DNA of 64,000 nucleotides from contig CACNLH010000004.1 in the NCBI GenBank assembly GCA_902621205.1, forward strand, positions 62,001-126,000. The letters run 5' to 3'. A program made the position numbers and the translations under genes. Below, one piece after another: positions 22,193 through 41,606 of the stretch. A model generated the notes under the pieces. It was not told the DNA's origin. It saw nothing but the letters and a program-made list of their open reading frames with translations, and searched no databases. Source of the stretch: an uncultured Alphaproteobacteria bacterium. Lineage in GTDB: Bacteria; Pseudomonadota; Alphaproteobacteria; HIMB59. The number at the start of each line of letters is the position of its first letter. The stretch's first letter is position 1.

Positions 22193-23455
22193 TTAAAACT
22201 TCTTATTGTAATCTAGTTTAGACAACCAGTTTTTATATTTTTTGATAGAAAATTTATGCTCCTCAATTAAATCATATCGATATGATTTATCTTCAACTTT
22301 TTTTTCAATCATTTCAAACTCATCATAATCACAAGGCACAAATTTAATTCTATCTCCTGGCCTAAATAGACAAATACTATCTTTGAAAACATCAAAATTT
22401 TTGTCAGGATCCCAAATGGGAACAGGGGTTCTTCCAAAAATTTGATAACCTCCAGGTAGCCTATCAGGATAAATAGCTGTGGACGATCCTCCCATGCCCA
22501 CGGTTCCTTTTGGTGTCCATGTTCTAGGTGGGTTATACTTTGGAGCGGTTAATTTGCACCTAGGGTCAAGAGGCATTGTAAATGGTAAACCAGGCCAAAA
22601 ACCAAGCGAAGCCACCCAATACTCAGTTCCAGAGTGAACTCTAACAAAATGATTAACATCATCTAATTGATTTAATTCTGTAATGAACTCAGGATCTGGC
22701 TTTTTCATTGTGATTTTAGCTATATAGTCTTCAATTGCTTCTTTAGTCCATTTGTCAAGATAGACAGTTGGGAAATGAAAAAGTCTGCTATTTACAACAG
22801 TATCATCATTATCTTTCATATCTTTAAGCAATGATTTCAATTCATTAATTAAATCTTGATAGCCGATATCATCTGGATTGTAATGAACTATCATCGAGGC
22901 AAAACATGGGAGTGTTTCGTAAACTCCCTTTATGTTTGCTGTCTTAATTAAGTTTGATAGCCCCTGAGCTTTAAAGTTCAATTCTAAATTCATCACATTA
23001 CCAAATTCTATTAATAAATATTTATCACCACCTGGTAAAAACTTTGGCTCAGGGTAAATTCCCTGAAATATCTCTGAGGTTTTATCTTTTGTATTCTTTG
23101 AAACTAAATTGGGATAAGAGCCATCCTCGTTTATATGTTTTTTTACAGAGAGTTTACTTACATTTAATTTAGGTTGAGAGATATTATGAGGGTACATATT
23201 TTTGAAACTAGCATAATCATCAACATCGAGTTGAGAGAATAAAATATCATCAAGTTTTTTTGATTTATCTTGAGATAAATGACTCTCTAAATTTTCAAAT
23301 TTTGAAATCTCGTGATTTAAATAATTAAATTTGATGTTATTGTTTTCTTGTTGCGATGAACCTATCTTATTTTTTTTTAATAACTCATCTTTAGGATTGG
23401 TTAAATCTATTTTCTGAAATAAATCTAAATCTGTATTTTTATATTCTTGAACCAT
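22193..23455 (-). CDS. pxpB: 5-oxoprolinase subunit B family (KipI/AHS1) with long N-terminal extension
   Basis: A 420-residue protein; the C-terminal 270 residues are a standard KipI/AHS1 domain (GGDKYLLIEFGNVMNLELNF, VHSGTEYWVASLGFWPGLPF, GMGGSSTAIYPDRLPGGYQI). The first 140 or so residues are low-complexity, rich in Asn, Lys, Ser and Asp (for example LDLFQKIDLTNPKDELLKKN) and are not part of the family, which is usually 210-240 residues. The extension lies directly next to the equally unusual low-complexity C-terminal tail of the ABC ATPase encoded just upstream (5-base gap). It acts with PxpC and PxpA. Confidence 0.88.
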   Translation of the reverse strand: MVQEYKNTDLDLFQKIDLTNPKDELLKKNKIGSSQQENNNIKFNYLNHEISKFENLESHLSQDKSKKLDDILFSQLDVDDYASFKNMYPHNISQPKLNVSKLSVKKHINEDGSYPNLVSKNTKDKTSEIFQGIYPEPKFLPGGDKYLLIEFGNVMNLELNFKAQGLSNLIKTANIKGVYETLPCFASMIVHYNPDDIGYQDLINELKSLLKDMKDNDDTVVNSRLFHFPTVYLDKWTKEAIEDYIAKITMKKPDPEFITELNQLDDVNHFVRVHSGTEYWVASLGFWPGLPFTMPLDPRCKLTAPKYNPPRTWTPKGTVGMGGSSTAIYPDRLPGGYQIFGRTPVPIWDPDKNFDVFKDSICLFRPGDRIKFVPCDYDEFEMIEKKVEDKSYRYDLIEEHKFSIKKYKNWLSKLDYNKKF

Positions 23456-23460
23456 TGAGT

Positions 23461-25242: not shown

Positions 25243-25254
25243 TAATTACTTAAA

Positions 25255-26415
25255 TTAAAGTAATGCTTCTCCACGATCGAAGAAATTATTTAAGTATTCA
25301 TCACTAGCCCAGTTTTCAATTCCAACAGTTCTAAACTCACTTGAGTTTCTGTCACAATCTTCAGGAACAAATGACTGAATAGTCTCAACATCTTCTTCAT
25401 ATGGAGGAACTAAGATAGACTGGATTTTAAGACCCTGACCATACATAGTTCTTAAAAGAACATTCATCGCAAACTCTGCATCATCTCCAGGAGGCCATGC
25501 ATAGACCGCTCTGTCAATAAAGTCTGGATTATTTCTCCAATAGCAAAATGCACCAATTTCTCCACCCAAAGCCATAGGGACCATTGGTCTTCCAGATGAT
25601 TCTAGAGCGTTAAGTGCTCCGGATTCTCCTGAAGACTGAACAGCAAATCCGTCAACTTCAATTGTATTAGCTGATAACCATTTTTGAAGTTCAGCTTGAG
25701 CAATTTGTGGTGTCCACATGTGTGCAATTTCAGCAACAACGGTAATATCTGGATATTCTGCAAATCCATCTAGCATACCTTGGTGCTGTGAGTCAGATGC
25801 TGATGTTCCAGGAATTCCTTCCATGATAACAACATTACCTTCACCACCAATAGTTTCTGCTAACCATTGTGCAATATAATATCCGGTTAATTTATAGTTA
25901 ACAGATGTACTGATAGCATATTCTGAAGTTAAGTATCCTGTCATTGATGCAGTAGGAACACCTTTTCCATACGCATACTCAATAGTTGGATTTAATGCAA
26001 CAGGATTTGAGCAACAGACTATTAATCCATCAACTCCTTGATCAGTTAACTGTCTCATTTGTTGAATTTGAACCGCGTCTTTTAGGTTAGATTGTGTAAC
26101 AACGATATCATTAAGAATACCTGCTGCTTTCATTTTTGGTAAATAGTCTCCGTACAATCTCTCCATCACACCTTTTCTCCATAGATTACCTGCGTAAGAA
26201 CTTGCATAACCGATAGTCCAAGGAAGTGGTCTATCACTTTTCCAATTTCTGTATACACTTTCACCAAGCGGTTGGTTAGGATCCATAAAGTCAGGATTAT
26301 AAACGAAGTCTCTAATATCAGCTGGAATTTCGTCTAAAATGTCAGCATTTAAGTTACCTGCGACACCGACAAAACTAACAGCTAAAATAGCTATGAACTT
26401 TTTAAGCAATGTCAT
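25255..26415 (-). CDS. Periplasmic substrate-binding protein of a sugar-type ABC transporter
   Basis: A 386-residue Peripla_BP_4-type binding protein with a signal peptide (MTLLKKFIAILAVSFVGVAG, cut near LNA). The start at 26415 is decided by AAGGAGGA just upstream; a longer in-frame reading to 26562 would add an unlikely 49 residues over the divergent promoter. Landmarks: PWTIGYASSYAGNLWRKGVM, VTQSNLKDAVQIQQMRQLTD, DGLIVCCSNPVALNPTIEYA. The substrate is not decidable; the interleaved oxoprolinase genes suggest a lactam such as 5-oxoproline or a related amide, otherwise a sugar. Confidence 0.9.
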   Translation of the reverse strand: MTLLKKFIAILAVSFVGVAGNLNADILDEIPADIRDFVYNPDFMDPNQPLGESVYRNWKSDRPLPWTIGYASSYAGNLWRKGVMERLYGDYLPKMKAAGILNDIVVTQSNLKDAVQIQQMRQLTDQGVDGLIVCCSNPVALNPTIEYAYGKGVPTASMTGYLTSEYAISTSVNYKLTGYYIAQWLAETIGGEGNVVIMEGIPGTSASDSQHQGMLDGFAEYPDITVVAEIAHMWTPQIAQAELQKWLSANTIEVDGFAVQSSGESGALNALESSGRPMVPMALGGEIGAFCYWRNNPDFIDRAVYAWPPGDDAEFAMNVLLRTMYGQGLKIQSILVPPYEEDVETIQSFVPEDCDRNSSEFRTVGIENWASDEYLNNFFDRGEALL

Positions 26416-26560
26416 AGTTTTATCCTCCTTACTTATATAAGTATCTATAATAATACCTATATTCTGAAAAATATAAGCAAAATTGTTCCAACATGTGGAA
26501 AAGATTTTCACATAAAAGCCTGATTTTCTGTAAATTATAAATGAGAGGAATTTATTATTC
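26416..26560. promoter_or_regulatory. Divergent promoter region with an inverted-repeat candidate operator
   Basis: These 145 bases separate the binding-protein gene (minus) from pxpA (plus) and must carry both promoters. It is AT-rich. The 19-base imperfect palindrome at 26494-26512, with arms TGTGGAAAA and TTTTCACA, and the overlapping short repeat TTCCA(5)TGGAA at 26486-26500 are candidate binding sites for a local regulator. No regulator gene is encoded next to the locus. A ribosome site (AGAGGAA) precedes pxpA and AAGGAGG precedes the binding-protein gene. Confidence 0.5.
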
Positions 26561-27346
26561 ATGGTCGATTTGAATTGCGATATGGGTGAGGGTTTTGGTA
26601 TTTACTCCTTCGCAGATGACGAAGAAATAATGCCTTATATAGATGCTGCTAATGTAGCTTGTGGGTTTCACGCCTCAGACCCAAACACAATGAGGAAAAC
26701 TGTCGAGCTTGCAAAAAAATATGATGTGAAAGTTGGATCGCACCCTGCCTATCCTGACTTAGTAGGATTTGGAAGAAGGCCAATGAAAATGAAACGTGAT
26801 GAAATCAAAAATCTTGTGATGTATCAAACTGGTGCCATCAAAGCCTTTCTAGATGAGTATGGAATGCCATTAAACCATATCAAACCTCATGGATCTTTAT
26901 ATGGTGTCTCCGCGAAAGAGGAAGATGTAGCTCATGGAATTGCTGACGCAGCTGAAATTTTTAATGTCGGTATTTTCGGAATGGTTAATACCTTTCACGA
27001 AAAAGTATACAAAGAAAGAGGAATAAAATTTTACGGAGAATTTTATTCTGACTTGGAATATGATGAAACAGGTTATTTGGTTATAGCTAAGGGTCGAAAT
27101 AAATATTATCCAACTGATAGAGCTGTGGAGCGTTGTTTAAGAGCAATGAATGAAAATAAAGTTAAAACTGTTCAAGGAAACGATGTAGTTGTAGGATGTG
27201 AAACGATTTGTGTCCACTCTGACACTCCTAATGCTGTAGAAATCTTAAAGGCTCTGAGAGAAAAAGTTTCCTCTGATAAAAAAATTCCACAAAAAACTTC
27301 AAACGGCAATCATACTAAAATGCCTTATATCGTTGATAAGAAATGA
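26561..27346 (+). CDS. pxpA: 5-oxoprolinase subunit A (LamB/YcsF family)
   Basis: A 261-residue LamB/YcsF protein. The hallmark start MVDLNCDMGEGFGIYSFADD and the segments ANVACGFHASDPNTMRKTV, VGSHPAYPDLVGFGRR and HIKPHGSLYG carry the conserved Asp, His and Glu residues of the active site. It hydrolyses the 5-oxoproline ring with the PxpBC subunits. A basic 20-residue C-terminal extension (IPQKTSNGNHTKMPYIVDKK) goes beyond the usual end. It overlaps the biotin carboxylase gene by four bases (ATGA) and is the first gene of the plus-strand arm of the divergon. Confidence 0.94.
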   Translation: MVDLNCDMGEGFGIYSFADDEEIMPYIDAANVACGFHASDPNTMRKTVELAKKYDVKVGSHPAYPDLVGFGRRPMKMKRDEIKNLVMYQTGAIKAFLDEYGMPLNHIKPHGSLYGVSAKEEDVAHGIADAAEIFNVGIFGMVNTFHEKVYKERGIKFYGEFYSDLEYDETGYLVIAKGRNKYYPTDRAVERCLRAMNENKVKTVQGNDVVVGCETICVHSDTPNAVEILKALREKVSSDKKIPQKTSNGNHTKMPYIVDKK

Positions 27347-28845
27347 AAAAAATTTTAATTGCTAATCGCGGTGAAATAGCAAATAGAATTATAAAAAGTT
27401 GTAAAATATTAGGTCACAAATCTGTAGCTGTATATTCAGATGCAGATAAGAATTCAAAGCATGTAAGATTATCTGACGAGTCTTATTATATAGGACCTAG
27501 TAAAGCTCAGGAAAGTTATCTTTCTTATAGTAAGATTTTAGATATAGCAACAAAATCAAATGTGGATGCTATTCATCCTGGTTTTGGTTTTTTATCAGAA
27601 AACGACACTTTTGCTCAAGAGGTCATAAACAGAGGTATCACATGGATTGGCCCTAAACCAAAATCAATAAAATCAATGGGAAATAAGGATATTGCTCGTG
27701 AATTAGCCCTAAATTCCAATATACCTATATGTCCGGGCATAAATAATGTTCATAAATTAAGCGATGAACAACTTAAGACAAAATGTGAAGCAATAGGTTA
27801 CCCTTTACTTGTAAAATCAAGTGCTGGTGGTGGGGGGATAGGCATGAGCGTCGTCCAAAACTTTAAAGACCTAGCTAATGCAATTGAAAAAACTAGTAAT
27901 CTTGCTGCAAAATCTTTTGGTAACGGAGATATTTTTATTGAGAAATTTATCACCAACGCCCGACATATTGAAATACAAGTTTTTGGATTTGGTGCAAAAG
28001 GATCTGTGCATCTGTTCGAAAGAGATTGCTCTATGCAAAGAAGATATCAAAAGATAATTGAGGAGTCTCCAGCACCAGAAGTAGATAGGGAATTAATTAA
28101 CAATATGGCTCAAGCCGCTGTAAAATTATCTTCTGATGTAAAATACGAAGGAGCAGGTACTGTAGAGTTTATATATGATGTGCAAGAAATGAAATATTAT
28201 TTTCTTGAGATGAATACTAGAATTCAAGTTGAACATCCTGTTACAGAGTTAGTTACAAATAATGATTTAATTTCCATGCAAATAAATTTTGCTTTTAATA
28301 GAAAAAATAAATTTTTAAATCAAAGTAAAATTAAAACTTATGGACATTCAATTGAGTGCAGAGTTTATGCAGAGGATCCTTCTCAAAATTTCTTACCATC
28401 TCCAGGGAAAATAAATAAATTAAAATTTCCTAAAATACCAAATGGCATAAGATTAGATTGGGGATATGATGAAAGAGATGAAGTAAGTTTCTATTATGAT
28501 CCGATGATTGGAAAAATTATATCTCACGACTTAATTCGAGACGATGCAATATCCAAATTAATAAAATTTTTAGAGGGCACCCAGATTGAAGGTATTAAGA
28601 CAAACATCCCCTTTTTAATTTGTCTTCTCAAAGACAAAAACTTTATAGAGGGTAAACACAACACAAAATATATCGAAAATAATTTAAACACTCTTATTAG
28701 TAAGACATCTTTTAAAAATGGTTTTACTAAAAATATTGATTTGGATTCAAAGAGAATTAAAATTGTTGAAACAGATAAGCTTAAAGTAGGTCATGGAAGA
28801 TCGCAGTCTGACAGAGGGGGTATCAAAGTCGTATATTTTGACTAA
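27343..28845 (+). CDS. Biotin carboxylase (ATP-grasp)
   Basis: A 500-residue biotin carboxylase: N-terminal MKKILIANRGEIANRIIKS, HPGFGFLSEN, the glycine-rich ATP loop KSSAGGGGIGM (the usual Arg before GM is Ile here), FIEKFITNARHIEIQVFG, the Glu/Asn metal ligands FLEMNTRIQVEHPVTE, and the C-terminal domain IECRVYAEDPSQNFLPSPGK. The last 60 residues after the family end are divergent. It would carboxylate the biotin carrier encoded at 21004. Overlap with pxpA and the LamB/Kip context mark it as a dedicated paralogue rather than the acetyl-CoA carboxylase subunit; that is context inference. Confidence 0.9.
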   Translation: MKKILIANRGEIANRIIKSCKILGHKSVAVYSDADKNSKHVRLSDESYYIGPSKAQESYLSYSKILDIATKSNVDAIHPGFGFLSENDTFAQEVINRGITWIGPKPKSIKSMGNKDIARELALNSNIPICPGINNVHKLSDEQLKTKCEAIGYPLLVKSSAGGGGIGMSVVQNFKDLANAIEKTSNLAAKSFGNGDIFIEKFITNARHIEIQVFGFGAKGSVHLFERDCSMQRRYQKIIEESPAPEVDRELINNMAQAAVKLSSDVKYEGAGTVEFIYDVQEMKYYFLEMNTRIQVEHPVTELVTNNDLISMQINFAFNRKNKFLNQSKIKTYGHSIECRVYAEDPSQNFLPSPGKINKLKFPKIPNGIRLDWGYDERDEVSFYYDPMIGKIISHDLIRDDAISKLIKFLEGTQIEGIKTNIPFLICLLKDKNFIEGKHNTKYIENNLNTLISKTSFKNGFTKNIDLDSKRIKIVETDKLKVGHGRSQSDRGGIKVVYFD

Positions 28846-28850
28846 TAATA

Positions 28851-31124
28851 ATGGTTAATCAACTTGTAGCAGCAATAAAACCCTCTCAAATTCCAGGTTC
28901 TGATCCTCAGTCAACAAAATACTTAATCGTCCCAATATTTATATTTTTTGCCCTAATGATTTTTGCGATGATTAGAGGACCTCAAATTATTTCAGGCTCG
29001 GGTATTGGAACCGCAATTATGGTTTCAACACCCCTTATTCTTGCTACTTATGCTCTTACTGCATTGGCTTTAGCCGGCAGAGTAACAGTCGATTTATCAA
29101 TAGGACCACTTATTGGTTTCATTAATGTAACGACAATACAACTTTATGCTGCAGGTTATATTCAATCGCCAGTTGCGTATTTCATATGTGCTCTTGCAAT
29201 AGGAGTAATTTACCAATTTCTTTATGCTTTAATCGTAATTTTTATCAGAGTTCAACCAATAATAGTTGCCTTAAGTATGTTTCTTGCTTTCTCTGGTATC
29301 AATTTAGTTATTTTACCAAGACCAGGAGGAAGAGCACCTGATTGGATGTTATCTTGGAGTGCTGGAACTGAGGTAGTACAGCCCACACTAATACTTTTAA
29401 TTTTCTCGACACTTATTTGGTATGCACTAACTCATACTGCTTACTGGCAACACTTAAAATTAATGGGTTCAGATGAAAAGTCTGCTTACACAAGTGGAGT
29501 GAGAATTTACGTTGTAAGAATTGGTGCTCATATTATTGGTGGAGTATACGCTGCACTCGCAGCTATTGCATTCACAGGTTTAATTGGTTCTGGAGACCCA
29601 ACTCAAGGTACTACTTATACATTGATGGCAGTTACGGCACTTGTATTAGGTGGGTCAAGTTTAATTGGTGGAAGAGGCGGAGCGTTTGGAGCAATTCTAG
29701 GTTCAGTTAACATTTATTTGATAAATTTTATTCTATCAACTTTCAGGTTTGAAAGATTTCAAAGTTTTGTAACAGACTTATCATACGGTGCGGTATTAGT
29801 GGCTTCTCTTTTAATACTTATAGCACTTCCCTATATTCAAAAAGCATTTAAAAATTTATCAGTTTTTGTATTTTTTATTATTGGAACATTAAGTGCTGCT
29901 GCTGTTCAAATTCATATGAAATTTGATCAAGTAACCAGAGGGACTGTGGGAGGTTTTGGAGGTAAATCTAAAGATGCTGAGATTTTTGAAAAAGCTCTTG
30001 AGTCCGGGAGTGATTGTTTAATCACAGGTAAGGCATGCGCAGAGGGTGGAAATTCTACAGTGTGGATGTTTATTGCTATCGGAATAGCAGCCTTGATTTA
30101 TCTCGTTTATTTGCTTGTTAAACATAGAGATGGCCCAACAGTGTCTTTTATTATTGCAGCAATTGTGATTTTTTTCGGTTGCGTTTGGAGTGGCACGAGA
30201 GAGGCTTATTTCGTTAACGCTGATTTGGGTACCAACTTACAATATATTTTAAATTATGCTCCTCAGTATTTTACATCTGAATATCTAAGAGTTGGTGCAG
30301 GATTACCTGATTTTTCATCTTCCTCGAGTGCTTTGGTTGGCCTCGCTTACGCTGTCGCAACTTTAGGAGGAATAGTTTTCTTTACATCTGCGATAGTAAT
30401 AATTGCTATGCCAAGATTTAGAAAAGAAATCAAAACACAAACACTTGTATTATTTGCAATAGCAATTTCATTTATTGTATTTGCTGCAATATCTTATTAC
30501 GGAATTGAGTCAAATAGACAGAGTTTCTTCGGCATAGATGGATACGCTGTAATACTAATTTTATTTTTACTTTTTTTACTTACGGCGCCAACTCTTTTCT
30601 CGAATATCAATTTGAATAATGTTTTCATTATTTTCCTCGGTGTATTAGCAATACTCGCTGTATACTTTTTGGCCTCACCATCTGGAACAATTATTACTGA
30701 TGATGGAAGTAAGTTTTACTCTCCAATTATTACAGAATTAATTGTTGGCGATACATCATCAATAAACTATACAAGGCCTATCCGCGGTGAATTTATCACA
30801 AGTGATGTAACTTGGCTTAAAGAGGCAGCTCTAATTATATTTGCAATATTTGTATTTCAATTTTTTACATATTTAACAATGGGAGCAAAAATATCATTTG
30901 CAAGGTTTAGACCTTACATTGCTATTTTAAGTATAGCTGCATTAACATGGTCAGCGATGTTCTTCGCAATTGGTTATCCTTATTGGAAAATGATTTTAAT
31001 TACTGCAATTGGAATAGCTATTTCGCCTCTGATATGGCAAGCCTTTGGTGTTTATAAAATAAAGTTAAAATCTCAAGAAGGACTTGAAAAATGGGGAGGT
31101 CTATCAGAAGATAGAAAAGTTTAG
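28851..31124 (+). CDS. Unusually long sugar-type ABC permease with extra C-terminal membrane domain
   Basis: A 757-residue integral membrane protein. Residues 1 to about 335 form a BPD_transp_2 permease (AGRVTVDLSIGPLIGF, MGSDEKSAYTSGVRIYVVRI as the ATPase-contact loop, TALVLGGSSLIGGRGG). The remaining 420 residues add roughly ten predicted membrane segments separated by short loops and two longer soluble loops (about 365-400 and 450-490), with no resemblance to a second permease domain that I can recognise. The normal family length is 310-350. Starts five bases after the biotin carboxylase stop, so it is co-transcribed with pxpA; the second permease follows after three bases. Confidence 0.85.
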   Translation: MVNQLVAAIKPSQIPGSDPQSTKYLIVPIFIFFALMIFAMIRGPQIISGSGIGTAIMVSTPLILATYALTALALAGRVTVDLSIGPLIGFINVTTIQLYAAGYIQSPVAYFICALAIGVIYQFLYALIVIFIRVQPIIVALSMFLAFSGINLVILPRPGGRAPDWMLSWSAGTEVVQPTLILLIFSTLIWYALTHTAYWQHLKLMGSDEKSAYTSGVRIYVVRIGAHIIGGVYAALAAIAFTGLIGSGDPTQGTTYTLMAVTALVLGGSSLIGGRGGAFGAILGSVNIYLINFILSTFRFERFQSFVTDLSYGAVLVASLLILIALPYIQKAFKNLSVFVFFIIGTLSAAAVQIHMKFDQVTRGTVGGFGGKSKDAEIFEKALESGSDCLITGKACAEGGNSTVWMFIAIGIAALIYLVYLLVKHRDGPTVSFIIAAIVIFFGCVWSGTREAYFVNADLGTNLQYILNYAPQYFTSEYLRVGAGLPDFSSSSSALVGLAYAVATLGGIVFFTSAIVIIAMPRFRKEIKTQTLVLFAIAISFIVFAAISYYGIESNRQSFFGIDGYAVILILFLLFLLTAPTLFSNINLNNVFIIFLGVLAILAVYFLASPSGTIITDDGSKFYSPIITELIVGDTSSINYTRPIRGEFITSDVTWLKEAALIIFAIFVFQFFTYLTMGAKISFARFRPYIAILSIAALTWSAMFFAIGYPYWKMILITAIGIAISPLIWQAFGVYKIKLKSQEGLEKWGGLSEDRKV

Positions 31125-31127
31125 TAA

Positions 31128-32519
31128 ATGGAGAAAAGAACTCATAATTTTTTAAAAGGACTTGGAATTCTATTTGCTGTTGCTGCTGGGATAGGTACCG
31201 CAGTTCTTGGTTATGTGGATAGAACTGATTGGATACAAGTTGCATTTTACTCGGTAGCAGTTGTTGCAATTATTCTTTGGGGATGGCATTTTTTCTTAGT
31301 TAGATGGTCTTATAGATCTCTAGTAAAGGAGGATGGATCTCAACCTCCTGAAACCACTGAAACAACAGGTAAAAGAAGCCTTTTTTGGGACCTTATTGCA
31401 AAGAACTGGATAGCCGTTACGGGATTTTTACTTCTTTTAGGTCTTTTTATATTGTTATGTTTTTTGGTACCTGGGTTCTTCTCAGGTAGAACGGTTGTAT
31501 CAGCAATCATACTATTAGGTTTCTTAATCTTAGCATTTCTTGCTTACAAATTTTTAAACATCAATAAGAGCGTAATAATAGGAGTCGCCGTACTTGTTGG
31601 TCTTTTTATAATAGGATCAGTTTCTATTGATGGCTTCTTATCACTACAGAATATTAAATCTATGTTAGTTTTTGCTTCTTTCTTAGGACTTGCAACTATT
31701 GGACAAACATTAGTTGTGATGTTAGGTGGCCTCGATTTATCAATACCATTTTTAATTGGCGCAACTAATTTAGGATTAATGTCACTTATTTCACTTGGAG
31801 TTCCCCCATGGCTAGCGTTTATAGTTATTCTTGCTTTTGGTACGATCGTCGGGCTCTTCAATGGTTTGATAAGTTTTAATCTCCAAGGACAATCATTAAT
31901 AGTCACGCTTGGAGTTGGGTTCATGGTGGTTGGGGGAGTACAGATATTGGTATCACTTCCTACTGTTACAGGTGGAACTGTGTTCGGTGTTGTTCCAGAC
32001 TGGTTAAAAAACCTAGCTTCATTAAATGGAAAATTTTTTGGTCTTCCAATACCTCCAGTTATCTTAATTTGGATATTGATTTCAATTTTATTAATTGTTG
32101 GACTAAGACACACTAAGTGGGGAAGAAACTTATATGCTGTTGGTGGAAAAAGGTTATCTGCTGACAGATTATCAATTTCTGAGAGAGCATATTGGGTTGG
32201 TGTTTATGTCATTAGTGGGTTTACTTCTGCAGCAACTGGAGCAATGTTACTGGGTTGGAGTGGTGGAGGGTTCATTGGTGTAGGAGATCAATATTTATTT
32301 TTAACAGTGGCAGCTGTGGCTGTAGGAGGAACTTCCTTATTAGGTGGATATGGAGGATACGGATTTACAGTAATCGGTGTTCTTGCACTTCAAGTCATTA
32401 GTACATTTTTGGCAGGACTAGGTTTAAGTTTTGAGGGTCAACAATTTATTTTTGGTCTTCTTATTCTACCTCTAGTTGCTCTTTATTCTAGAGCACCGCA
32501 TATTAGGGAGCAAATATAA
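31128..32519 (+). CDS. Sugar-type ABC permease with N-terminal extension
   Basis: A 463-residue BPD_transp_2 permease. The first 160 residues carry three or four additional helices and the basic/acidic loop EDGSQPPETTETTGK; the standard permease runs from about residue 165 (TLVVMLGGLDLSIPFLIGAT, WGRNLYAVGGKRLSADRLSI, AVAVGGTSLLGGYGGYG). It pairs with the 757-residue permease encoded three bases upstream, and with the ATPase and binding protein of the opposite arm. It ends the plus-strand arm; a weak hairpin follows. Confidence 0.9.
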   Translation: MEKRTHNFLKGLGILFAVAAGIGTAVLGYVDRTDWIQVAFYSVAVVAIILWGWHFFLVRWSYRSLVKEDGSQPPETTETTGKRSLFWDLIAKNWIAVTGFLLLLGLFILLCFLVPGFFSGRTVVSAIILLGFLILAFLAYKFLNINKSVIIGVAVLVGLFIIGSVSIDGFLSLQNIKSMLVFASFLGLATIGQTLVVMLGGLDLSIPFLIGATNLGLMSLISLGVPPWLAFIVILAFGTIVGLFNGLISFNLQGQSLIVTLGVGFMVVGGVQILVSLPTVTGGTVFGVVPDWLKNLASLNGKFFGLPIPPVILIWILISILLIVGLRHTKWGRNLYAVGGKRLSADRLSISERAYWVGVYVISGFTSAATGAMLLGWSGGGFIGVGDQYLFLTVAAVAVGGTSLLGGYGGYGFTVIGVLALQVISTFLAGLGLSFEGQQFIFGLLILPLVALYSRAPHIREQI

Positions 32520-32643: not shown

Positions 32644-33345
32644 ATGAATAAAATGCTTCTCCCTTACGACATTGTAGGGGGGTCTTTCTGGTTGATTTCT
32701 GTCGGCATGATTGGTGCCACCTTATTTTTCTTTTTTGAGCGCAGTAAAGTAAGCACAAGATTTCATACACCTATGACAATGATAGCTGTTGTATGCTTGA
32801 TGTCCTCTATACATTATTTCTTCGTAAAAAATCTCTGGGTAGTTAGCGGTACCGCCCCAACTTTATTAAGATATATAGATTGGTTTCTTAACTTTCCAAT
32901 GCTTGTACTTATTTTTTATGCAATGCTTATGTCAGTTGTCAAAGTTAAACAAGGCATGTTCTGGAGATTATTAGTTGGAACTTTAGTTTTCGTTGTAGCA
33001 GGGTTCTTAGGTGCAGCAGGTTACATGAGTAAGACATTAGGTTTCATTGTTTGGTTGGCTGGATGGTTATACATCCTCGGTGAGTTATATGTCGGAGAGG
33101 CTGGAAGAGCAAATGCGAGATGTGGAAATGAAAATGTACAAATGGTTTTCTTCTCAAACAGACTTATTATTACAATTGGATGGGCTATATACCCAATGGG
33201 ATATTTCATAGAGCATTTGGGTGGGGGTATTGACCCCAACAGTGTTAATGTGATCTATAATTTAGCAGACTTTTTAAATAAAATAGTTTTTGGTTTAATA
33301 ATTTACAAAGCAGCAATACAAGACATGAGAGTTAATGGACAATAA
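32644..33345 (+). CDS. Proteorhodopsin-like microbial rhodopsin with DNI motif
   Basis: A 233-residue seven-helix retinal protein. The retinal Schiff-base lysine is K213 in NLADFLNKIVFG, with D209 as its counter-ion partner (D227 of proteorhodopsin). In helix C, RYIDWFLNFPMLVLIF aligns without gaps to proteorhodopsin: R76 and D79 (proton acceptor D97) are kept, but the T101 position is N83 and the donor E108 position is I90, a Asp-Asn-Ile triad. H57 matches His75. L87 matches position 105, where Leu goes with green absorption. There is no long signal sequence as in classic proteorhodopsin. No retinal or carotenoid genes lie in the window. It is followed by a flotillin-like gene. Function as a pump is uncertain without the donor carboxylate. 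Confidence 0.93.
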   Translation: MNKMLLPYDIVGGSFWLISVGMIGATLFFFFERSKVSTRFHTPMTMIAVVCLMSSIHYFFVKNLWVVSGTAPTLLRYIDWFLNFPMLVLIFYAMLMSVVKVKQGMFWRLLVGTLVFVVAGFLGAAGYMSKTLGFIVWLAGWLYILGELYVGEAGRANARCGNENVQMVFFSNRLIITIGWAIYPMGYFIEHLGGGIDPNSVNVIYNLADFLNKIVFGLIIYKAAIQDMRVNGQ

Positions 33346-33372: not shown

Positions 33373-35361
33373 ATGAACATAACTAGTGGTGCAGATATTA
33401 TTGCGATAATAATCTTAATAGCGTTAGCAATAGCAATTATAGTTTACTTGCTACATTGGTTGTACAGGCGTTCTTCAAAGGAAATAGCGTTTGTTAGAAC
33501 CGGTATGGGAGGTGAACAAGTTGTTATCAGCGGAGGTGCCTTCGTTTTGCCTATTATTCATAACATTACCTCAGTGGGTATGAAAACTCTTTGTATAGAG
33601 GTTCAACGAAACGGCAGTAAATCTTTTATTACAAAAAATAGAATGAGGGCAGAAGTAACAGCTGAATTCTATGTTAGAGTAGCTCCAACAACTGAGGCTG
33701 TCTCAATAGCTGCGCAAACACTGGGAAATAGAACATTAGAACCTGATCATTTAAAGGAGCTTGTTCAAGGTCGATTTGTTGATGGATTAGGTGTGGTAGC
33801 CGCAAAAATGAGCCTTGATGAAATTCAAGAGAATAGATCTGAGTACATTAAAAATGTTGCAGCTCATGTTGAAGAAGCAATTAAGCACACTGGTTTGGAG
33901 TTAGAGACTGTCTCTTTGACATCTCTTAACCAAGCACCCGTGGGTGTATTCGACCCTTCAAATACATTTGATGCTGAGGGTTTAACTCAAATAACAGAAT
34001 TTACTCAGTCACGTAAAAAGAAAAGAAATGATATTGAGAAAGATACAGAGGTAAGTATTCGAAATAAAAACCTCCAATCTATCAAGCAAACTCTTGAAAT
34101 TGAAAAAGAGGAAGAATTTTCAAAGTATCAACAAAAACGTGAAATCGAACAACAAAGAGCCATTGAAAATACTGAGACAGTAAAAACAAAAGCTGAGAAA
34201 GACAAAGAGTCTGAGCTAGCTGAAATCTCTTCAGAAAAAGATATTGAGATCGCCAAGATTAGCAAGAAAGACTTTGTTGAGATGGAAAAAAGTTTACAAG
34301 AAACTAAACTTATCCAAGAAATTGAGAAAAGAAGAAAAGAACAAAATGAGTTTAAACAACAAACTTCTATCGAGATTAAACAGAAAGATATCGAGACAGA
34401 AAAAACTATTCTTGAACTGGAAAGAGATGTTGAATTCAGTCGTTTAGAAAAACAAAGATCAGTTGATATTAAACTTGCTGAGGAAAAAGCTCAAACAGCA
34501 AAAGAAGAAGCTAGAAAAAGGTATGAGTCTGAAGAGGCTTATATTATGGCTGAGGAGCAAATTAAAAATGCAAAAACTGCTCAACAGAAAAATGTTGATG
34601 CGTTCAAAATTGCTGCGGAGCAAGAGACAAGAGTCTTAGATATTGAAAAGGCAAAAAGAATAGAAATTGAAGAAAAGCAAAAACAAATGGAAGTCCTAGA
34701 AAAATCTAAGTCAGTCCTAAAAACTAAAATGGAAGAAGAAAATGCTCGAGCTAAAGCAGTAGAAGCTGAGGAAAAAGTCAACACCATTCGAGATGTCGAA
34801 CAGGCTGAGAAGACAAAAGCTCTAGGAGTAATAGATGCTAGTAAAAATGCTGAGAGAGAAAAATTAGCATCTATGGCTGCGAAAATTAGATATGAAATTG
34901 AAGCAGCTGGCAAAAAAGCCCTAAATGAAGCGGAAAATGCTAGAAGTGATGCAAGTAGAAGAAGTGCTCTTAGACAAAAACTCGCTGAAAAAATAGAGGG
35001 TATTATTAGAGAATGGGTTAGACCAATGCAAAATATTGACTCAATTAAAGTTGTAGATGTAAATGGATTACCTGGATTTAGTCAAGGAGGAGGAGCTGAA
35101 GGAAGCGGCAACGCTGATAACCCCTCTGCGTCCTCAGGTGGATATTCAAAAAAAGGATCTTTAGCAGATAATGTTGTAAATTCAGCACTTAGATACAGAG
35201 CACAACAGCCGTTCTTAGATAGTCTTTTAAAAGAAATTGGTATGTCCCCTGGCGAGGCAAGTAACATCAGGAATATTCTCGGTGACTATGATGATCCTAA
35301 GAAGGACAAGCATATGAGATTTGATGAACAAGCAACAAAGACACCCAGGAAAAAGAAATAG
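33373..35361 (+). CDS. Flotillin/YqiK-like SPFH-domain membrane protein
   Basis: A 662-residue protein with an N-terminal membrane helix (about residues 8-28), a band-7/SPFH domain (residues 35-200: AFVRTGMGGEQVVISGGAFV, MRAEVTAEFYVRVAP, LKELVQGRFVDGLGVVA) and a long charged coiled coil from about 210 to 530 made of Glu/Lys heptads. The last 100 residues include a Gly/Ser-rich linker (GGGAEGSGNADNPSASSGG) and a short helical end. This is the flotillin/YqiK layout; relatives assemble into membrane microdomain scaffolds. It follows the rhodopsin by 27 bases with a strong ribosome site, suggesting the scaffold acts on the rhodopsin or shares its membrane context. That link is inference. Confidence 0.88.
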   Translation: MNITSGADIIAIIILIALAIAIIVYLLHWLYRRSSKEIAFVRTGMGGEQVVISGGAFVLPIIHNITSVGMKTLCIEVQRNGSKSFITKNRMRAEVTAEFYVRVAPTTEAVSIAAQTLGNRTLEPDHLKELVQGRFVDGLGVVAAKMSLDEIQENRSEYIKNVAAHVEEAIKHTGLELETVSLTSLNQAPVGVFDPSNTFDAEGLTQITEFTQSRKKKRNDIEKDTEVSIRNKNLQSIKQTLEIEKEEEFSKYQQKREIEQQRAIENTETVKTKAEKDKESELAEISSEKDIEIAKISKKDFVEMEKSLQETKLIQEIEKRRKEQNEFKQQTSIEIKQKDIETEKTILELERDVEFSRLEKQRSVDIKLAEEKAQTAKEEARKRYESEEAYIMAEEQIKNAKTAQQKNVDAFKIAAEQETRVLDIEKAKRIEIEEKQKQMEVLEKSKSVLKTKMEEENARAKAVEAEEKVNTIRDVEQAEKTKALGVIDASKNAEREKLASMAAKIRYEIEAAGKKALNEAENARSDASRRSALRQKLAEKIEGIIREWVRPMQNIDSIKVVDVNGLPGFSQGGGAEGSGNADNPSASSGGYSKKGSLADNVVNSALRYRAQQPFLDSLLKEIGMSPGEASNIRNILGDYDDPKKDKHMRFDEQATKTPRKKK

Positions 35362-35370
35362 GTATAACTC

Positions 35371-35760
35371 ATGAGTATAGATGTAAAATCCTGGGCAAAA
35401 AAATATAAAGAGCTTACTGAAAAAGATGAAACCATAAAAGCGATGGCGAAATATTACACTTGTTCATTTCTTTTCGACATGGGTAGTGTGAAAGTGATTA
35501 TCGAGATGCACGATGGAAAGGTTAAAAATATTAATACTAACCCTGGAGGTTTAGATCCATACGACTTTGCATTAAGGGCATCAGAGCAAACATGGAGAGA
35601 GTTTGCAAAGCCTGTTCCAAAACCTATGTTTCATGGAATCTATGCAGCCTCATTTAGAGAAGACCTTAAAATCGAGGGCAATCATTTAGTCTTAATGCAA
35701 AATCTTAGAAACTTTACTGTTCAATTTGAATTGCTAAGACAATCGGGAGTTCCAGTATGA
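35371..35760 (+). CDS. Small SCP2-like protein
   Basis: A 129-residue soluble protein, nine bases after the flotillin-like gene. The pattern of a helix, strands SVKVIIEMHDGKVKNINTN, then TWREFAKPVPKPMFHGIYAA and LKIEGNHLVLMQNLRNFTVQ resembles the sterol-carrier-protein-2 fold, which binds lipids or acyl chains, but this is a pattern judgement. If right, it would be a lipid-binding partner of a membrane-scaffold operon. Otherwise an unknown protein. Confidence 0.6.
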   Translation: MSIDVKSWAKKYKELTEKDETIKAMAKYYTCSFLFDMGSVKVIIEMHDGKVKNINTNPGGLDPYDFALRASEQTWREFAKPVPKPMFHGIYAASFREDLKIEGNHLVLMQNLRNFTVQFELLRQSGVPV

Positions 35761-35785: not shown

Positions 35786-36649
35786 ATGGCAGTAAAACAT
35801 CATGACCCAATAGGTAGATATGTTACCATCGAGGTAGATGGTCAACAGTATAAAGTCTTTTATCTTTCTAATGGAAAAGGCACTCCATTAGTATGTCAGC
35901 ATACTGCTGGATGCCATAATCATCAGTGGAGAGGATTACTGGAAGATGAAGAAATTACTCAAAATTATCAAGTTATCGCTTACGACCTTCCAAGACATGG
36001 TAAATCAGATCCACCTCACAATACAGAATGGTGGAAAGAGGAGTACAAATTAACAGCAGAGCATTACTGTAATTTTATTGTAGAACTTTGTAAGGCCCTA
36101 GACCTTGAAAACCCTATATTTATGGGATCTTCTTTTGGAGGGAACGTGGCTCTCCAATTAGCTCTGAAGTATCCTAACAAATTTAAAGCTGTGATCCCTG
36201 TCGAGGCTGCGCATTACTCCCCTGGTTTTTATATTGATTGGTGGAGGCATCCTCATGCCAATGCAGCTCAAGTGTGTGGTAGTGGTGTTTGGGATTTAAT
36301 GGCCCCACAATCTCCAGATATGGATAGATGGTTAACTTGGCATTATTACACTCAAGGATCAGAGGCTTTTAAAGGAGACCTTCATTTTTATTCAGTTGAT
36401 CATGATTTAAGAGATGAGCTACAAAATATCGATGGTCACAAGTGCCCTGTTATCATGCTGACTGGTACTTATGACTACCTAACCCCTCCCGAAGCAACAG
36501 AAGATACTGCCAGACAAATAAAAGGAGGAGTTTATATTGAAATGAGAGATATTGGTCATTTCCCGATGAGTGAAAACCATGAAGTCTTTAGAGTATATTT
36601 ATTAGAGGCACTCAGAATTATTAAGGAAAAGACTGATTACAACTCTTAA
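35786..36649 (+). CDS. Alpha/beta-hydrolase fold protein
   Basis: A 287-residue alpha/beta hydrolase. The nucleophile Ser is in MGSSFGGNVALQLA near residue 114, the acid Asp in LTGTYDYLTPP near residue 230, the base His in DIGHFPMSENHEVF near residue 260; HTAGCHNHQWRG near residue 45 forms the oxyanion region. It has no signal peptide. It is the last gene of the rhodopsin-flotillin run, 25 bases downstream of the SCP2-like gene with its own AAGGAAA site. Substrate unknown; an ester or lactone is likely by family. Confidence 0.87.
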   Translation: MAVKHHDPIGRYVTIEVDGQQYKVFYLSNGKGTPLVCQHTAGCHNHQWRGLLEDEEITQNYQVIAYDLPRHGKSDPPHNTEWWKEEYKLTAEHYCNFIVELCKALDLENPIFMGSSFGGNVALQLALKYPNKFKAVIPVEAAHYSPGFYIDWWRHPHANAAQVCGSGVWDLMAPQSPDMDRWLTWHYYTQGSEAFKGDLHFYSVDHDLRDELQNIDGHKCPVIMLTGTYDYLTPPEATEDTARQIKGGVYIEMRDIGHFPMSENHEVFRVYLLEALRIIKEKTDYNS

Positions 36650-36663
36650 TTCAAGTTTGAGTT

Positions 36664-38718
36664 ATGGTCGCTAATCTATATTGGTTTTTTTTCTTTCTTG
36701 TCCTTTATATAAGCTTTTGTCTTTTTTGGGGAGCTAGAACTCTTAGAAAAAATAAAACCCCTGAGGCTTACTATTTAGCAGATAGAAGTGTATCTCCTTG
36801 GGTATTCTTTTTCTCTGCAACAGTAACTACATTTGCAGGTATAACTATCATTTCTTTTCCATCATTAATTTATGCAGATGGATACTCTTTTCTAGCTACT
36901 GCTGCAATTGTAATAACAATTCCTCTCGGAAGTATACTATTTTTTAAAAGGCAGTGGATGCTAAGTAGAAAATTTAATTTTATTACTCCAGGAGAGATGT
37001 ATTATAAATATTATCAAAGTAATACTCTTAGAATTGTAGTCCTAATAATCGGATTATTTTTTGCTGTTCCATTTCTTGGTATAATTATTGGATCAACAGG
37101 TAATGTTGTAGAGTTTATTAGCGGAGGTGAAATAACCAGAGACTCTGCAATGTGGGCACTAACTGCTGTTGTCTTATTTTATATAGTATCTGGTGGATTT
37201 AAACCCATGGTGAGTGTAAGCGTTGTTCAATCATGGTTATTTTTTGTTTTTTTCTTAGCGCTTGGTGTTGGTGTATTTAATTACTTAGGAGGTTTAAGTT
37301 TTTTTGAAGACCTATCTATGGCGAATAGCTTTATATCTTTCGGAGCTTGGGGAACTACTGGAGGTTATGGAGGCGGCGATATTTCAGGATATTTCAACGT
37401 TCCTGGTGTAATTCAGTGGGTCGCAGGTATTGGAAAAAATAACCCGTTAGGAGGCCCTTGGACAGCAGTTATGATTTTATCCTTTACTCTCTCTTATATG
37501 GGTATTGTGCTTTCTCCTACATTTTCGATGTGGAGCTATTCAGTAAAATCACCAAGGTCATTTTACTTTTATCAAGTTTGGGGGTCAGGTGCTGTAGTTG
37601 GTATATTTTTATTTATATTCGCCCCTTTATTAGGTGTTGGAGCACATCTTCTTGGAGCCAATAGTATTGTTAATTCAAATGGTTTTGCCATTAACCAAAT
37701 ATTCCCTGAGCTAAGTCTACAAAATATATCATCTTTAATTTATGTGTTTGTTGAAAGCTTCAGTAATCTTTCACCAATCATTGTTGGATTTTTAGCAATA
37801 TCCATAATTGCTGCTCTTCAATCTACATTATCTGCTTTTTTAATGACTTCAGGTAGCATGGTGGCAAGAGATCTCTATAGACCATATATCGATAGTAACC
37901 CTACATGGAAAAGGGAGTTATTAGTTGCCAGGTTAGCGATGTTGTTATTAAGCCTAGCGGCACTATATCTTGCAACTTTTTTTGAAACCTCTCTAATACT
38001 ACTTGGTGGATTAGCAATCGCTTTTGGTTTCCAATTGTTTCCTGTTTTACTTGGAATGCTTTGGTTTAAATGGATCACAAGAGGTGGGGCAATTCTTGGA
38101 CTCATCACCGGATTAGGTTTTGTAACTTTAGCTGAAACTTTTGGTCATAAGCTAACAGGAAATTCTCTTCCTTGGGGGCGATGGCCACTAACAATCTACT
38201 CTGGTTTATGGGGTTTATTCTTTAATGTAATTGTATGTTTTTTATCCTCTATATTTGCAAGTAATGATATAGATAAAGAACATCGAGCATCATTCCACAA
38301 TTTTTTAAATGAACATATGGGTATTCACCCATCAAGAAAAAAAATAAAATCTCTCGCTTATGTTTTCTTTTTAATTTGGGCATTCTTTTCTATCGGCCCG
38401 GGTTTAATTTTCGGAAACTTAATATTTGGTAGTGCGGATCAAAGTTATGATAATTGGGTGATGGGAGTTCCTTCACTGTGGGCTTATCAAATAATTTGGT
38501 GGGTAGCGGGTATATTTCTAATTTGGTTTTTAGCCAATAAGATGGACTTATCGACTTTGCCAAAAAAACCCATACTAAATGGTGATGAATATTTGGCACC
38601 TGACGATGTTGAGGAGCAAGGAAACTATATTGATAGAATGGGAGGAGGGTATGGTTGGCCACTTATATTAATAGGTATGGCTGTGGCAACTGTAATACTT
38701 TCCGTTTATGCATTATGA
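36664..38718 (+). CDS. Sodium:solute symporter family protein
   Basis: A 684-residue integral membrane transporter of the SSS (SLC5-like) family with about 14 predicted helices. N-terminal ARTLRKNKTPEAYYLADRSV and helix two SATVTTFAGITIISFPSLIY are landmarks, and residues 290-450 contain the conserved helices around SIIAALQSTLSAFLMTSGSM. The C-terminal 140 residues are an extra cytoplasmic/membrane part. It precedes the dimethylformamidase-like genes, so it may import their substrate or a related small solute with Na+. Family firm, substrate unknown. Confidence 0.9.
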   Translation: MVANLYWFFFFLVLYISFCLFWGARTLRKNKTPEAYYLADRSVSPWVFFFSATVTTFAGITIISFPSLIYADGYSFLATAAIVITIPLGSILFFKRQWMLSRKFNFITPGEMYYKYYQSNTLRIVVLIIGLFFAVPFLGIIIGSTGNVVEFISGGEITRDSAMWALTAVVLFYIVSGGFKPMVSVSVVQSWLFFVFFLALGVGVFNYLGGLSFFEDLSMANSFISFGAWGTTGGYGGGDISGYFNVPGVIQWVAGIGKNNPLGGPWTAVMILSFTLSYMGIVLSPTFSMWSYSVKSPRSFYFYQVWGSGAVVGIFLFIFAPLLGVGAHLLGANSIVNSNGFAINQIFPELSLQNISSLIYVFVESFSNLSPIIVGFLAISIIAALQSTLSAFLMTSGSMVARDLYRPYIDSNPTWKRELLVARLAMLLLSLAALYLATFFETSLILLGGLAIAFGFQLFPVLLGMLWFKWITRGGAILGLITGLGFVTLAETFGHKLTGNSLPWGRWPLTIYSGLWGLFFNVIVCFLSSIFASNDIDKEHRASFHNFLNEHMGIHPSRKKIKSLAYVFFLIWAFFSIGPGLIFGNLIFGSADQSYDNWVMGVPSLWAYQIIWWVAGIFLIWFLANKMDLSTLPKKPILNGDEYLAPDDVEEQGNYIDRMGGGYGWPLILIGMAVATVILSVYAL

Positions 38719-38823: not shown

Positions 38824-39252
38824 ATGTCTGATTACAGCTACAAGCATCCCTCAAACGTCCAATTAAATAAAGGACATAAACACACTGATGATTTTATTAC
38901 CAAAAAATACATTTTAAAAATGTTGAGAGATCCTCAAAAATTAAAATCTTTAATTGAAGAGCATAGAGCAACTCCAGTTGGAAGGGCTGCTACTCGAGAC
39001 CATGGTGTCATTCAGCATAGCCAAGATCTCCAAACATTATTAGATAAGTTAAGAAGAGGAAGTAAAGAAAATGGTTTTGTAACTGTTTGTTTAAGAAGGC
39101 ATGAAGATTATAGAGTTGGAATAACAACAGGAGTTAGAGGTGAGCCAGTTGAAATAACTGAAGACTCTTATTCATCTGAAGAGGCATGTGAACATGCAAT
39201 ATTTTTAAAAAGAATTAACAGACTTCTTGAGGAGTATAGCGGGGAAGAGTAA
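38824..39252 (+). CDS. Probable N,N-dimethylformamidase small (alpha) subunit
   Basis: A 142-residue soluble, charged protein that overlaps the large-subunit gene by one base (TAATG). The size (known alpha subunits are about 130 residues), position and composition match the alpha subunit of dimethylformamidase, which packs on the large subunit. Segments such as GFVTVCLRRHEDYRVGITTG and EEACEHAIFLKRINRLLEEY are conserved-looking. The call relies on the neighbour; by itself I would call it hypothetical. Confidence 0.68.
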   Translation: MSDYSYKHPSNVQLNKGHKHTDDFITKKYILKMLRDPQKLKSLIEEHRATPVGRAATRDHGVIQHSQDLQTLLDKLRRGSKENGFVTVCLRRHEDYRVGITTGVRGEPVEITEDSYSSEEACEHAIFLKRINRLLEEYSGEE

Positions 39253-41606
39253 TGTTAAAAATAACAGGTTATAGCGATAAGTACTCAGCTCATCCAGGTG
39301 AAGAAGTTAAATTTTATATTAATGCAGAATACAATGATAGTTATGAAGTTCAATTAGTCCGTCTTATACACGGTGATACAAATCCTGAAGGCCCTGGGTA
39401 TAAAGAAGCTGAAATAGATGCCAGTTGTAATGGAACTTATCAAGGGAAAAACCAGAGAATACATGGTGGATCGTACATCATCATGCCTCAGCATGATAAT
39501 TTAAATTTAGAGAGCTTTACTATGCAAGCTTATATTTTTCCTACAACGCCAGATAAAGGTAGACAAGGAATTTTCACTAAATTTAATGAAGAAGAAAAAA
39601 AAGGCTATGGTCTCTTCATTAATGATGAGGGATGTTTATCTGTAGAAATAGGAGATGGATCTCAGGTTGTTACTGTCTCCTCAGAAAAAAAACTTTTAAG
39701 AAAAGTTTGGTATCTGGTAATTGCAACATTTGATGCACAATCAAGAAGGCTTACCCTTCACCAAGAACCTAGGGTTACATCCACAAATGGTGGTTTAGGT
39801 ATGGCTATTTTGAATCCAATTGAAGAAACCTCAGCTATTATTGAGACCACTAGCTCAGTTTTACCTGCTGCTAATGATGCTCCATTGTTAATTGCAGCTA
39901 CTACATTAAATAATAGATCTGGTAGGCACATTTCCGGAGGTCATTTTAAAGAAGTACCTCATCCCATTGAATTACCTGAGCAAACCAAGACTTTTAATGG
40001 CAAGATAGACAGACCTAGATTATCTAATATTGCGCTATCGAAGGCTGAAATTGAAACACTTGCATCAAGCTATGATGAGTGTAATACCACTGTCAGGTCA
40101 ACAGTCGTAGGTGCCTGGGATTTTCATGCGAATATTGGTAAAAACATTGCCTCAACAAAGATTGTTGATACTTCTCCAAATAATCACCACGGATTTATTA
40201 TTAATATGCCAAACAGAGGTATGACAGGACATAACTGGACAGCGGATGAAATGGTTTTCCATCATAAACCTGAGGAATACGGTGCAATTCATTTTCATGA
40301 CGATGATATAGACGATGCAAGATGGGATGTAGACTTTACTTTAAAAGTACCTGAGGGATTAAAAAGTGGTGTCTACGCTGCAAGACTAAGAGTAGACGGA
40401 CGAGAGGAATCAGAAAATGAGGACTATATTCCATTTTGTGTTAAACCTCCCAAGGGGACAGCAACTGCAAAAACTTTATTCTTATTGCCTACTAATAGTT
40501 ACATGGCTTACTCCAATGATAATCTTGGAACCAACTCTGTGGTAGCACAATTGCTTGCAGGTAAAGTGCCTGTGCTTGAGCCAGCAGATTTATATTTAAA
40601 TGAACATAGAGAATACGGGCTATCAACTTATTCACTTCACTCAGACGGACATGGTGTATCAATATCATCAAGACTAAGACCAATCCTTAATATGAGACCT
40701 AAATATAGACATTGGCTTTCTCCTTCATTATGGCAACTCAATGCCGACTTACATCTTACTGATTGGTTAGAAGAAAAAGGTTTTGATTTTGATGTTCTGA
40801 CAGACGAGGATTTGGAACATGAAGGTATAAATTTATTAAATCGTTATAAAGTTGTGATGACTGGAAGTCACCCTGAGTATTCATCTGAGAAATATATGGA
40901 TGCTCTAGAGTCATATCAAATGCAGGGTGGTAGATGTTTTTATCTAGGATCAGATGGATTTTATTGGATTAGTGAGTATCATCCTGACAACCCTAATATT
41001 ACCGAAGTTAGAAAAGGTGAAGCAGGCACAAGAGCATGGACATCTAACCCAGGTGAATACAATAATGCTTTTGATGGTAAATATGGAGGTATGTGGAGAG
41101 CTCGAGGAAGAATACCTTCTAAAGTTTGTGGGTTAACTTTCACATCTTATGGATTTGACGTATCCTCATACTACAAAAGAGAAGAAGATAGTTTTAAACC
41201 TGAATGTTCATGGATCTTTGAGGGGATTGGAGCAGATGAGGTGATTGGTGATTTTGGTTTAGTTGGTGGAGGAGCTGCCGGTTTGGAGTTAGACAGATAC
41301 GACTTAGAATTTGGAACCCCACATAATGCTTATTATTTGGCTCGCTCGCAGGATCACTCTAATATGATGTTGCAAGTTAACGAGGAAATACATTTTGCTG
41401 TTCGTGGTTACTATGGTGGTGGTCATGAAAATCCAATGGTCAGAGCTGATATGATTTACTATAAAACACCTAACAATGGAGCAATGTTTGCACCAGGGTC
41501 TTTGGCTTGGTGCGGTAGTCTCTCACATAATAATTACAATAATAATGTCTCTAGAATAATGGAAAATACGCTTAAAGGTTTCTTAAAGGACGGGCCTTTA
41601 CCTTAA
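39252..41606 (+). CDS. N,N-dimethylformamidase beta-subunit-like iron amidohydrolase
   Basis: A 784-residue protein. An N-terminal beta domain and a LamG/concanavalin-like domain (residues about 70-270, NLESFTMQAYIFPTTPDKGR) precede the C-terminal DMFase domain (about 400-770). In Paracoccus DMFase, as I recall, Fe is held by Tyr399, Tyr440 and Glu521 with a His519 nearby; here Tyr420, Tyr460 and Glu542 (in GSHPEYSS, with His540) line up at a near-constant offset of 20-21. So the metal site is intact. Known enzymes split dimethylformamide to formate and dimethylamine; the marine substrate could be another small amide. Co-translated with the small subunit. Confidence 0.87.
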   Translation: MLKITGYSDKYSAHPGEEVKFYINAEYNDSYEVQLVRLIHGDTNPEGPGYKEAEIDASCNGTYQGKNQRIHGGSYIIMPQHDNLNLESFTMQAYIFPTTPDKGRQGIFTKFNEEEKKGYGLFINDEGCLSVEIGDGSQVVTVSSEKKLLRKVWYLVIATFDAQSRRLTLHQEPRVTSTNGGLGMAILNPIEETSAIIETTSSVLPAANDAPLLIAATTLNNRSGRHISGGHFKEVPHPIELPEQTKTFNGKIDRPRLSNIALSKAEIETLASSYDECNTTVRSTVVGAWDFHANIGKNIASTKIVDTSPNNHHGFIINMPNRGMTGHNWTADEMVFHHKPEEYGAIHFHDDDIDDARWDVDFTLKVPEGLKSGVYAARLRVDGREESENEDYIPFCVKPPKGTATAKTLFLLPTNSYMAYSNDNLGTNSVVAQLLAGKVPVLEPADLYLNEHREYGLSTYSLHSDGHGVSISSRLRPILNMRPKYRHWLSPSLWQLNADLHLTDWLEEKGFDFDVLTDEDLEHEGINLLNRYKVVMTGSHPEYSSEKYMDALESYQMQGGRCFYLGSDGFYWISEYHPDNPNITEVRKGEAGTRAWTSNPGEYNNAFDGKYGGMWRARGRIPSKVCGLTFTSYGFDVSSYYKREEDSFKPECSWIFEGIGADEVIGDFGLVGGGAAGLELDRYDLEFGTPHNAYYLARSQDHSNMMLQVNEEIHFAVRGYYGGGHENPMVRADMIYYKTPNNGAMFAPGSLAWCGSLSHNNYNNNVSRIMENTLKGFLKDGPLP

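Follow-up and report, generated by a model that had tools for sequence, protein, structure and literature searches.

The window, by which we mean the whole 64,000-nucleotide stretch of DNA analyzed here, carries at 32644-33345 on the forward strand an open reading frame of 233 residues, with an ATG start and a TAA stop, that matches the Pfam family Bac_rhodopsin (E 1.1e-31). A flotillin gene (33373-35361, forward strand, 662 residues) starts 27 nt past the rhodopsin stop codon, with AGGAGG just 5' of its start. The flotillin contains Flot (E 2.1e-29) and Band_7 domains and is the sole Flot match in the genome of the window, which is 86% complete. Downstream and on the same strand are found the genes of a small protein of 129 residues (35371-35760), an alpha/beta hydrolase (35786-36649), a Sodium:solute symporter (36664-38718), and an N,N-dimethylformamidase-like large subunit (39252-41606; DMFA2_C, E 3.7e-91). 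The small protein is possibly SCP2-like, although its SCP2 match (E 0.043) is under the Pfam gathering score and an equally weak PoNi_C match (E 0.018) counts against this assignment. A search of NCBIfam gave no match for the rhodopsins, the flotillin, or the 129-residue protein. Upstream of the rhodopsin, the forward strand encodes a PxpA-like protein (LamB/YcsF, 26561-27346), a biotin carboxylase-like protein (27343-28845), and two ABC permeases of the inner-membrane translocator kind (28851-31124 and 31128-32519, both BPD_transp_2). The reverse strand encodes the two carboxyltransferases CT_A_B (21224-22192) and CT_C_D (22193-23455), a PxpC/PxpB or urea-carboxylase-like pair, together with an ABC ATPase (23461-25242) and a sugar-type binding protein (25255-26562). 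Despite the biotin carboxylase, the split carboxyltransferases, and PxpA, no biotin-carrier domain was listed among the scanned proteins; urea, oxoproline, or another amide are candidate substrates for these carboxylase genes (21224-28845).

We aligned 19 proteins taken from the window and from related genomes; helix C of the window protein matched the proteorhodopsins without any gap. D79, N83, and I90 occupy the triad columns, which we take to be D97, T101, and E108 in the numbering of the green proteorhodopsin GPR, and H57, R76, W80, L87, W180, Y183, P184, D209, N212, and K213 fill the columns expected of them. The residue numbers and the gap-free helix C given in an earlier note on this DNA are thus right. 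The alignment also bears out its claim that the acceptor Asp, the second Asp, and the Schiff-base lysine are kept while the cytoplasmic donor is gone: a careful alignment placed no carboxylate at the donor position, where Ile90 stands. With a D79-N83-I90 triad, the protein is indeed not a standard DTE pump. Sodium and chloride pumps carry NDQ and NTQ triads, respectively, and the window triad fits neither, so both were rejected on the basis of the triad. The suggestion of green absorption from L87 holds as far as a Leu is present at the tuning column, and the color call itself would be valid only with retinal bound. When rows are drawn from stop to stop, the protein begins one column past a leader-like stretch that is found in five of the six proteorhodopsin rows, the exception (L095) having no long leader; judged from these open frames, its N-terminus is shortened compared with proteorhodopsin.

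The window protein is a flotillin-associated rhodopsin (FArhodopsin, or FAR) of the HIMB59 type, and both the group and its DNI variant are already known. Haro-Moreno et al. 2023 (PMC10308929) named the flotillin-associated rhodopsins and described them in Pelagibacterales, HIMB59, and Pseudothioglobus. As described there, their triads are DTT, DTL, or DNI, the DTE triad being replaced by Asp-Asn-Ile in HIMB59 members, and the tuning site is Gln or Leu in HIMB59 and Pseudothioglobus members. A group of possible rhodopsin homologs devoid of functional prediction was also mentioned for the AEGEAN-169/HIMB59 clade (PMC10308909). The idea that the triad was unknown is therefore not upheld, and an undescribed triad is ruled out, since PMC10308929 gives DNI for the FArhodopsins of HIMB59. 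The same variant suggests HIMB59 as the host. Description and characterization of the same triad had been mentioned together in the earlier note; the first is found in PMC10308929, but our literature search returned no biochemically characterized DNI protein.

Set against the description of HIMB59-type FArhodopsins in PMC10308929, the window shows no distinguishing feature: it shares the DNI triad, the Leu tuning residue, the short N-terminus, the flotillin neighbor, the kinds of cluster genes, and a second, DTE rhodopsin in the genome. The published cluster contains PxpA, carboxylase and carboxyltransferases, translocator, SCP2, hydrolase, Na symporter, and dimethylformamidase, and no transducer gene appears in its description (PMC10308929). 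Compared by kind, every one of these genes is present around the window rhodopsin, SCP2 weakly; the gene of the 129-residue protein occupies the place of the sterol-carrier gene in the published cluster (PMC10308929). The rhodopsin-flotillin spacer is 27 nt in the window versus 16 nt quoted for Pelagibacterales (PMC10308929). FArhodopsins are found in ocean bacteria that are abundant, and the window contributes no further kind. An odd triad in a flotillin-adjoining marine rhodopsin belongs to a known group.

A scan of genome contigs yielded 48 FAR loci, with 36 DNI, 1 DNV, 10 DTT, and 1 ETT triads, so that position 83 is Asn in 37 loci and Thr in 11. In one locus (L034), the frame is broken near the start; its DNI triad was read separately, and the misframed row does not enter the column counts. 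A lone sequencing error does not account for an Asn found in 37 of 48 loci, and sequencing error or pseudogene is ruled out since many genomes share the triad and dN/dS is far below 1. We counted a rhodopsin as FAR-like at E 1e-100 or below, a cut of our own; 40 of the order's 162 genomes have one, 38 of 52 within the genus and 2 of 110 outside it. All 40 FAR-like genomes have a Flot match versus 4 of the 122 others; among these four, the match lies at the very contig start in G139 and G143, is in a short open frame in G146, and is of a shorter type in G112. Within the genus, this second type of flotillin, which is shorter (580-582 residues as an open frame), lies apart from the FAR gene in three genomes (G119:C1:43626-44000, G120:C1:90412-90780, and G112:C52:7637-8017). 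At 47 of the 48 loci, a long open reading frame begins 28-36 nt past the last matched codon, and it looks like the same flotillin in the 8 of these loci for which the start of the frame was printed.

A tree of 23 proteins separated 14 FAR rows, including PsFAR, from 9 proteorhodopsins by a 100/100 branch; the tree was rooted at midpoint, and PsFAR, GPR, and 4jq6 were flagged as long, making their exact place unsure. The DTT FArhodopsins of Pelagibacterales, whose motif was reported in Olson et al. 2018 (PMC5864233), share about 65-69% identity with the window protein over the aligned rows, and they also adjoin a flotillin-like open reading frame. They differ from it by the DTT triad, W116, Q120, F180, and H184.

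The nearest solved sequences are those of PsFAR (PDB 9r23, E 1.6e-91, and 9r21, E 9.7e-91), followed by an ordinary pump (9r22, E 1.8e-58). Structure searches with the predicted model of the window protein, whose confidence is medium (mean pLDDT 77.4), also placed the PsFAR entries at the top (Z 28.3 and 28.0, 56-57% identity). However, 4kly followed at Z 27.9, a gap of less than 1 Z unit; structure alone thus hardly tells FAR from proteorhodopsin, which counts against our reading. We found no relevant PsFAR paper in open-licence PubMed Central, preprints excluded, and what is said here of PsFAR comes from entry titles and sequences. PsFAR and the window protein share numbering and clade, but PsFAR has T83/M90, F57, H84, S85, M116, E120, and G137 where the window protein has N83/I90, H57, F84, P85, F116, G120, and W137. 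According to its title, entry 9r23 is the PsFAR double mutant H84V/E120G (V102 and G138 in GPR numbering), which puts proteorhodopsin residues at two pocket positions of PsFAR.

Three of the substitutions seen in the alignment of the window protein, V102F, M134F, and G155W in GPR numbering (F84, F116, and W137), fall on positions that we take to be retinal contacts from what is known of proteorhodopsin and bacteriorhodopsin, and Ala replaces E142. In alignment A1, V102 is replaced by F, E142 by A, and M134 by F or W throughout the 13 FAR rows, while all 9 proteorhodopsin rows have V102, E142, and M134; PsFAR has H, A, and M. On the other hand, the window protein keeps Lys213, Asp79, Asp209, Arg76, W80, W141, W180, Y183, Y187, and P184. 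Across the 47 loci in the correct frame, Lys213, Asp79, Asp209, and Arg76 never vary, save for one D79E. The DTT FArhodopsins carry W180F and P184H, and Gly120 of the window is the proteorhodopsin residue. The window pocket is less altered than theirs because W180, P184, and the other pocket aromatics are kept. With the window added and L034 omitted, 48 rows are readable: 32, the window's among them, combine G120 with W137, and 5 other DNI or DNV rows combine E120 with G137. Q120 with G137 is the combination in all 11 rows of the DTT or ETT type. Gly120/Trp137 thus sets the subclade of the window off from the Glu120/Gly137 of other HIMB59-type rows, which is a small addition to what was known. 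Judging from these two columns, W137 may take over the plug role of E120. Marine FArhodopsins, HIMB59 type included, are predicted to clash with retinal (PMC10308929); Haro-Moreno et al. also state that the AlphaFold pocket may be wrong, and that the lysine is absent from most freshwater FArhodopsins (PMC10308929). For the window protein, a clash with retinal is suggested by our alignment, by this published prediction, and by the contact positions assumed above.

We then compared the FAR gene with the proteorhodopsin gene across 21 genomes, namely the genome of the window and 20 others chosen for having both genes listed. For FAR, the median pairwise dN/dS comes to 0.0105, and for proteorhodopsin to 0.0362; these pairs are not independent, and dS exceeds 0.05 in 184 of 210 FAR pairs and 57 of 210 proteorhodopsin pairs. 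Purifying selection on the FAR gene is very strong. Compared with the window, 28 of 32 rows (the 32 come from 31 genomes, L029 and L091 sharing one) have 0 to 5 amino-acid-changing differences and 25 to 63 silent ones, and in the remaining four (L027, L028, L029, and L091, with 97% identity), silent changes are saturated or nearly so. Close relatives thus share nearly every residue of the DNI form. Relative to the genome of the window, 17 of the 20 genomes show 25-37 silent changes in FAR and 0-5 in proteorhodopsin (L001 in the window's genome), and the other three show 57-58 and 30-31, respectively. Since silent divergence is higher for FAR than for proteorhodopsin in the same genomes, the two loci have different histories, the gap reflecting either a different exchange history or a codon constraint on proteorhodopsin.

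The proteorhodopsin in question lies on another contig of the same genome (G000:C2:45414-46058), with a DTE triad and a Gln tuning residue. A gene of the beta-carotene dioxygenase type (retinal-forming oxygenase) lies some 3.6 kb away, so the genome can probably make retinal. The window protein shares with ordinary proteorhodopsins (this copy, GPR 2l6x, and 4jq6) the fold, the retinal lysine, both Asp, the Arg, and the His, and is about 44-49% identical to the copies of the order. It differs from them by the loss of the donor and E142, a bulkier pocket, a shorter N-terminus, and the flotillin neighbor. A second, bona fide DTE rhodopsin was reported to be 'always' present in FAR genomes (PMC10308929). 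By our own count, 32 of the 40 FAR-like genomes have a further rhodopsin match outside the FAR-like set (in G117 it was counted without a listing). The eight others are G123, G132, G138, G140, G161, G001, and G004 (single match) and G118 (both matches FAR-like); they are mostly incomplete, but G140 is 94% complete. These genomes, some of them incomplete, therefore do not fully bear out 'always'.

Taken with the sequence and the predicted fold, the lost donor, the bulkier pocket, the flotillin, the cluster genes, and the purifying selection are the observations from which we interpret the protein. We consider it likely that this HIMB59-type FArhodopsin is a proteorhodopsin paralog that has lost pumping, has probably lost retinal binding as well, and acts with flotillin. 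The bulkier pocket residues favor such a non-pumping, retinal-free protein. A retinal-free membrane protein would then partner the neighboring flotillin in a membrane microdomain, perhaps one in which the transporters of the cluster or the ordinary proteorhodopsin are held; alternatively, a small hydrophobic ligand might be bound in the remnant pocket near Lys213. Decanoate was present in a retinal-free proteorhodopsin (PMC11322631). As a role, flotillin partner or scaffold, or ligand binding, is the one we favor first. The DTT relatives gave neither acidification nor color in E. coli (Olson et al., PMC5864233), although the same authors name misfolding or a wrong membrane as possible reasons for this result and write that a retinal pocket is present in the DTT sequences (PMC5864233). 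The retained lysine, Asp, Arg, and aromatic residues, Gly120, and the retinal-forming oxygenase-type gene of the genome speak against a retinal-free protein.

A more specific version of the retinal-free reading, which we put forward tentatively, is that FArhodopsins have closed their pocket differently by lineage and that the filled pocket itself is kept by selection, for a flotillin-bound structural or ligand-sensing role. Closure would be achieved by Glu120 in PsFAR and the Q-type HIMB59 rows, by Gln120 and Trp116 in Pelagibacterales, and by Trp137 with Gly120 in the subclade of the window. A space-filling swap, in a protein whose amino acids hardly change while silent divergence is high, would make the filled pocket a selected feature. 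Gly120/Trp137 versus Glu120/Gly137 offers a natural contrast for testing the closed pocket as a conserved feature.

The earlier note had proposed slow pumping, light sensing, or transport of another ion. That the protein binds retinal and works as a slow-cycling pump or a light sensor agrees with Lys213, Asp79, Asp209, and Arg76 being so nearly invariant, with Gly120 and W180/P184 being the same as in proteorhodopsin, with the retinal-forming gene, and with the best recruitment of HIMB59 members in the upper photic layer (PMC10308929). We nevertheless regard it as unlikely: Val, Met, and Gly at retinal contacts have given way to F84, F116, and W137, E142 and the donor are lost, the cluster as described is without a transducer (PMC10308929), a DTE pump is already encoded in the genome, and the DTT relatives show no pigment or pH change (PMC5864233). 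The flotillin linkage likewise disfavors these proposals, the other ion included. Another explanation, an idea of Haro-Moreno et al. (PMC10308929), would be a helper or spectral tuner of the ordinary proteorhodopsin in a mixed, flotillin-organized complex; the DTE proteorhodopsin of the same genome, the flotillin linkage, and the second rhodopsin in 32 of 40 genomes fit with it, but its lack in the remaining genomes, G140 among them, and the differing silent divergence of both genes across the same genomes make it improbable.

Two further cases deserve mention next to the retinal-free, flotillin-linked FArhodopsin that we prefer for the window. In a Pelagibacteraceae FArhodopsin (L045:4001-4669), Glu replaces the primary counterion Asp79, giving the ETT triad. 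G118, a genome of 150 contigs, has two FArhodopsins (L087 and L089), with a DTT triad in one and DNV in the other. Each of them shares its contig with a flotillin match, and G118 is probably a mixed assembly.
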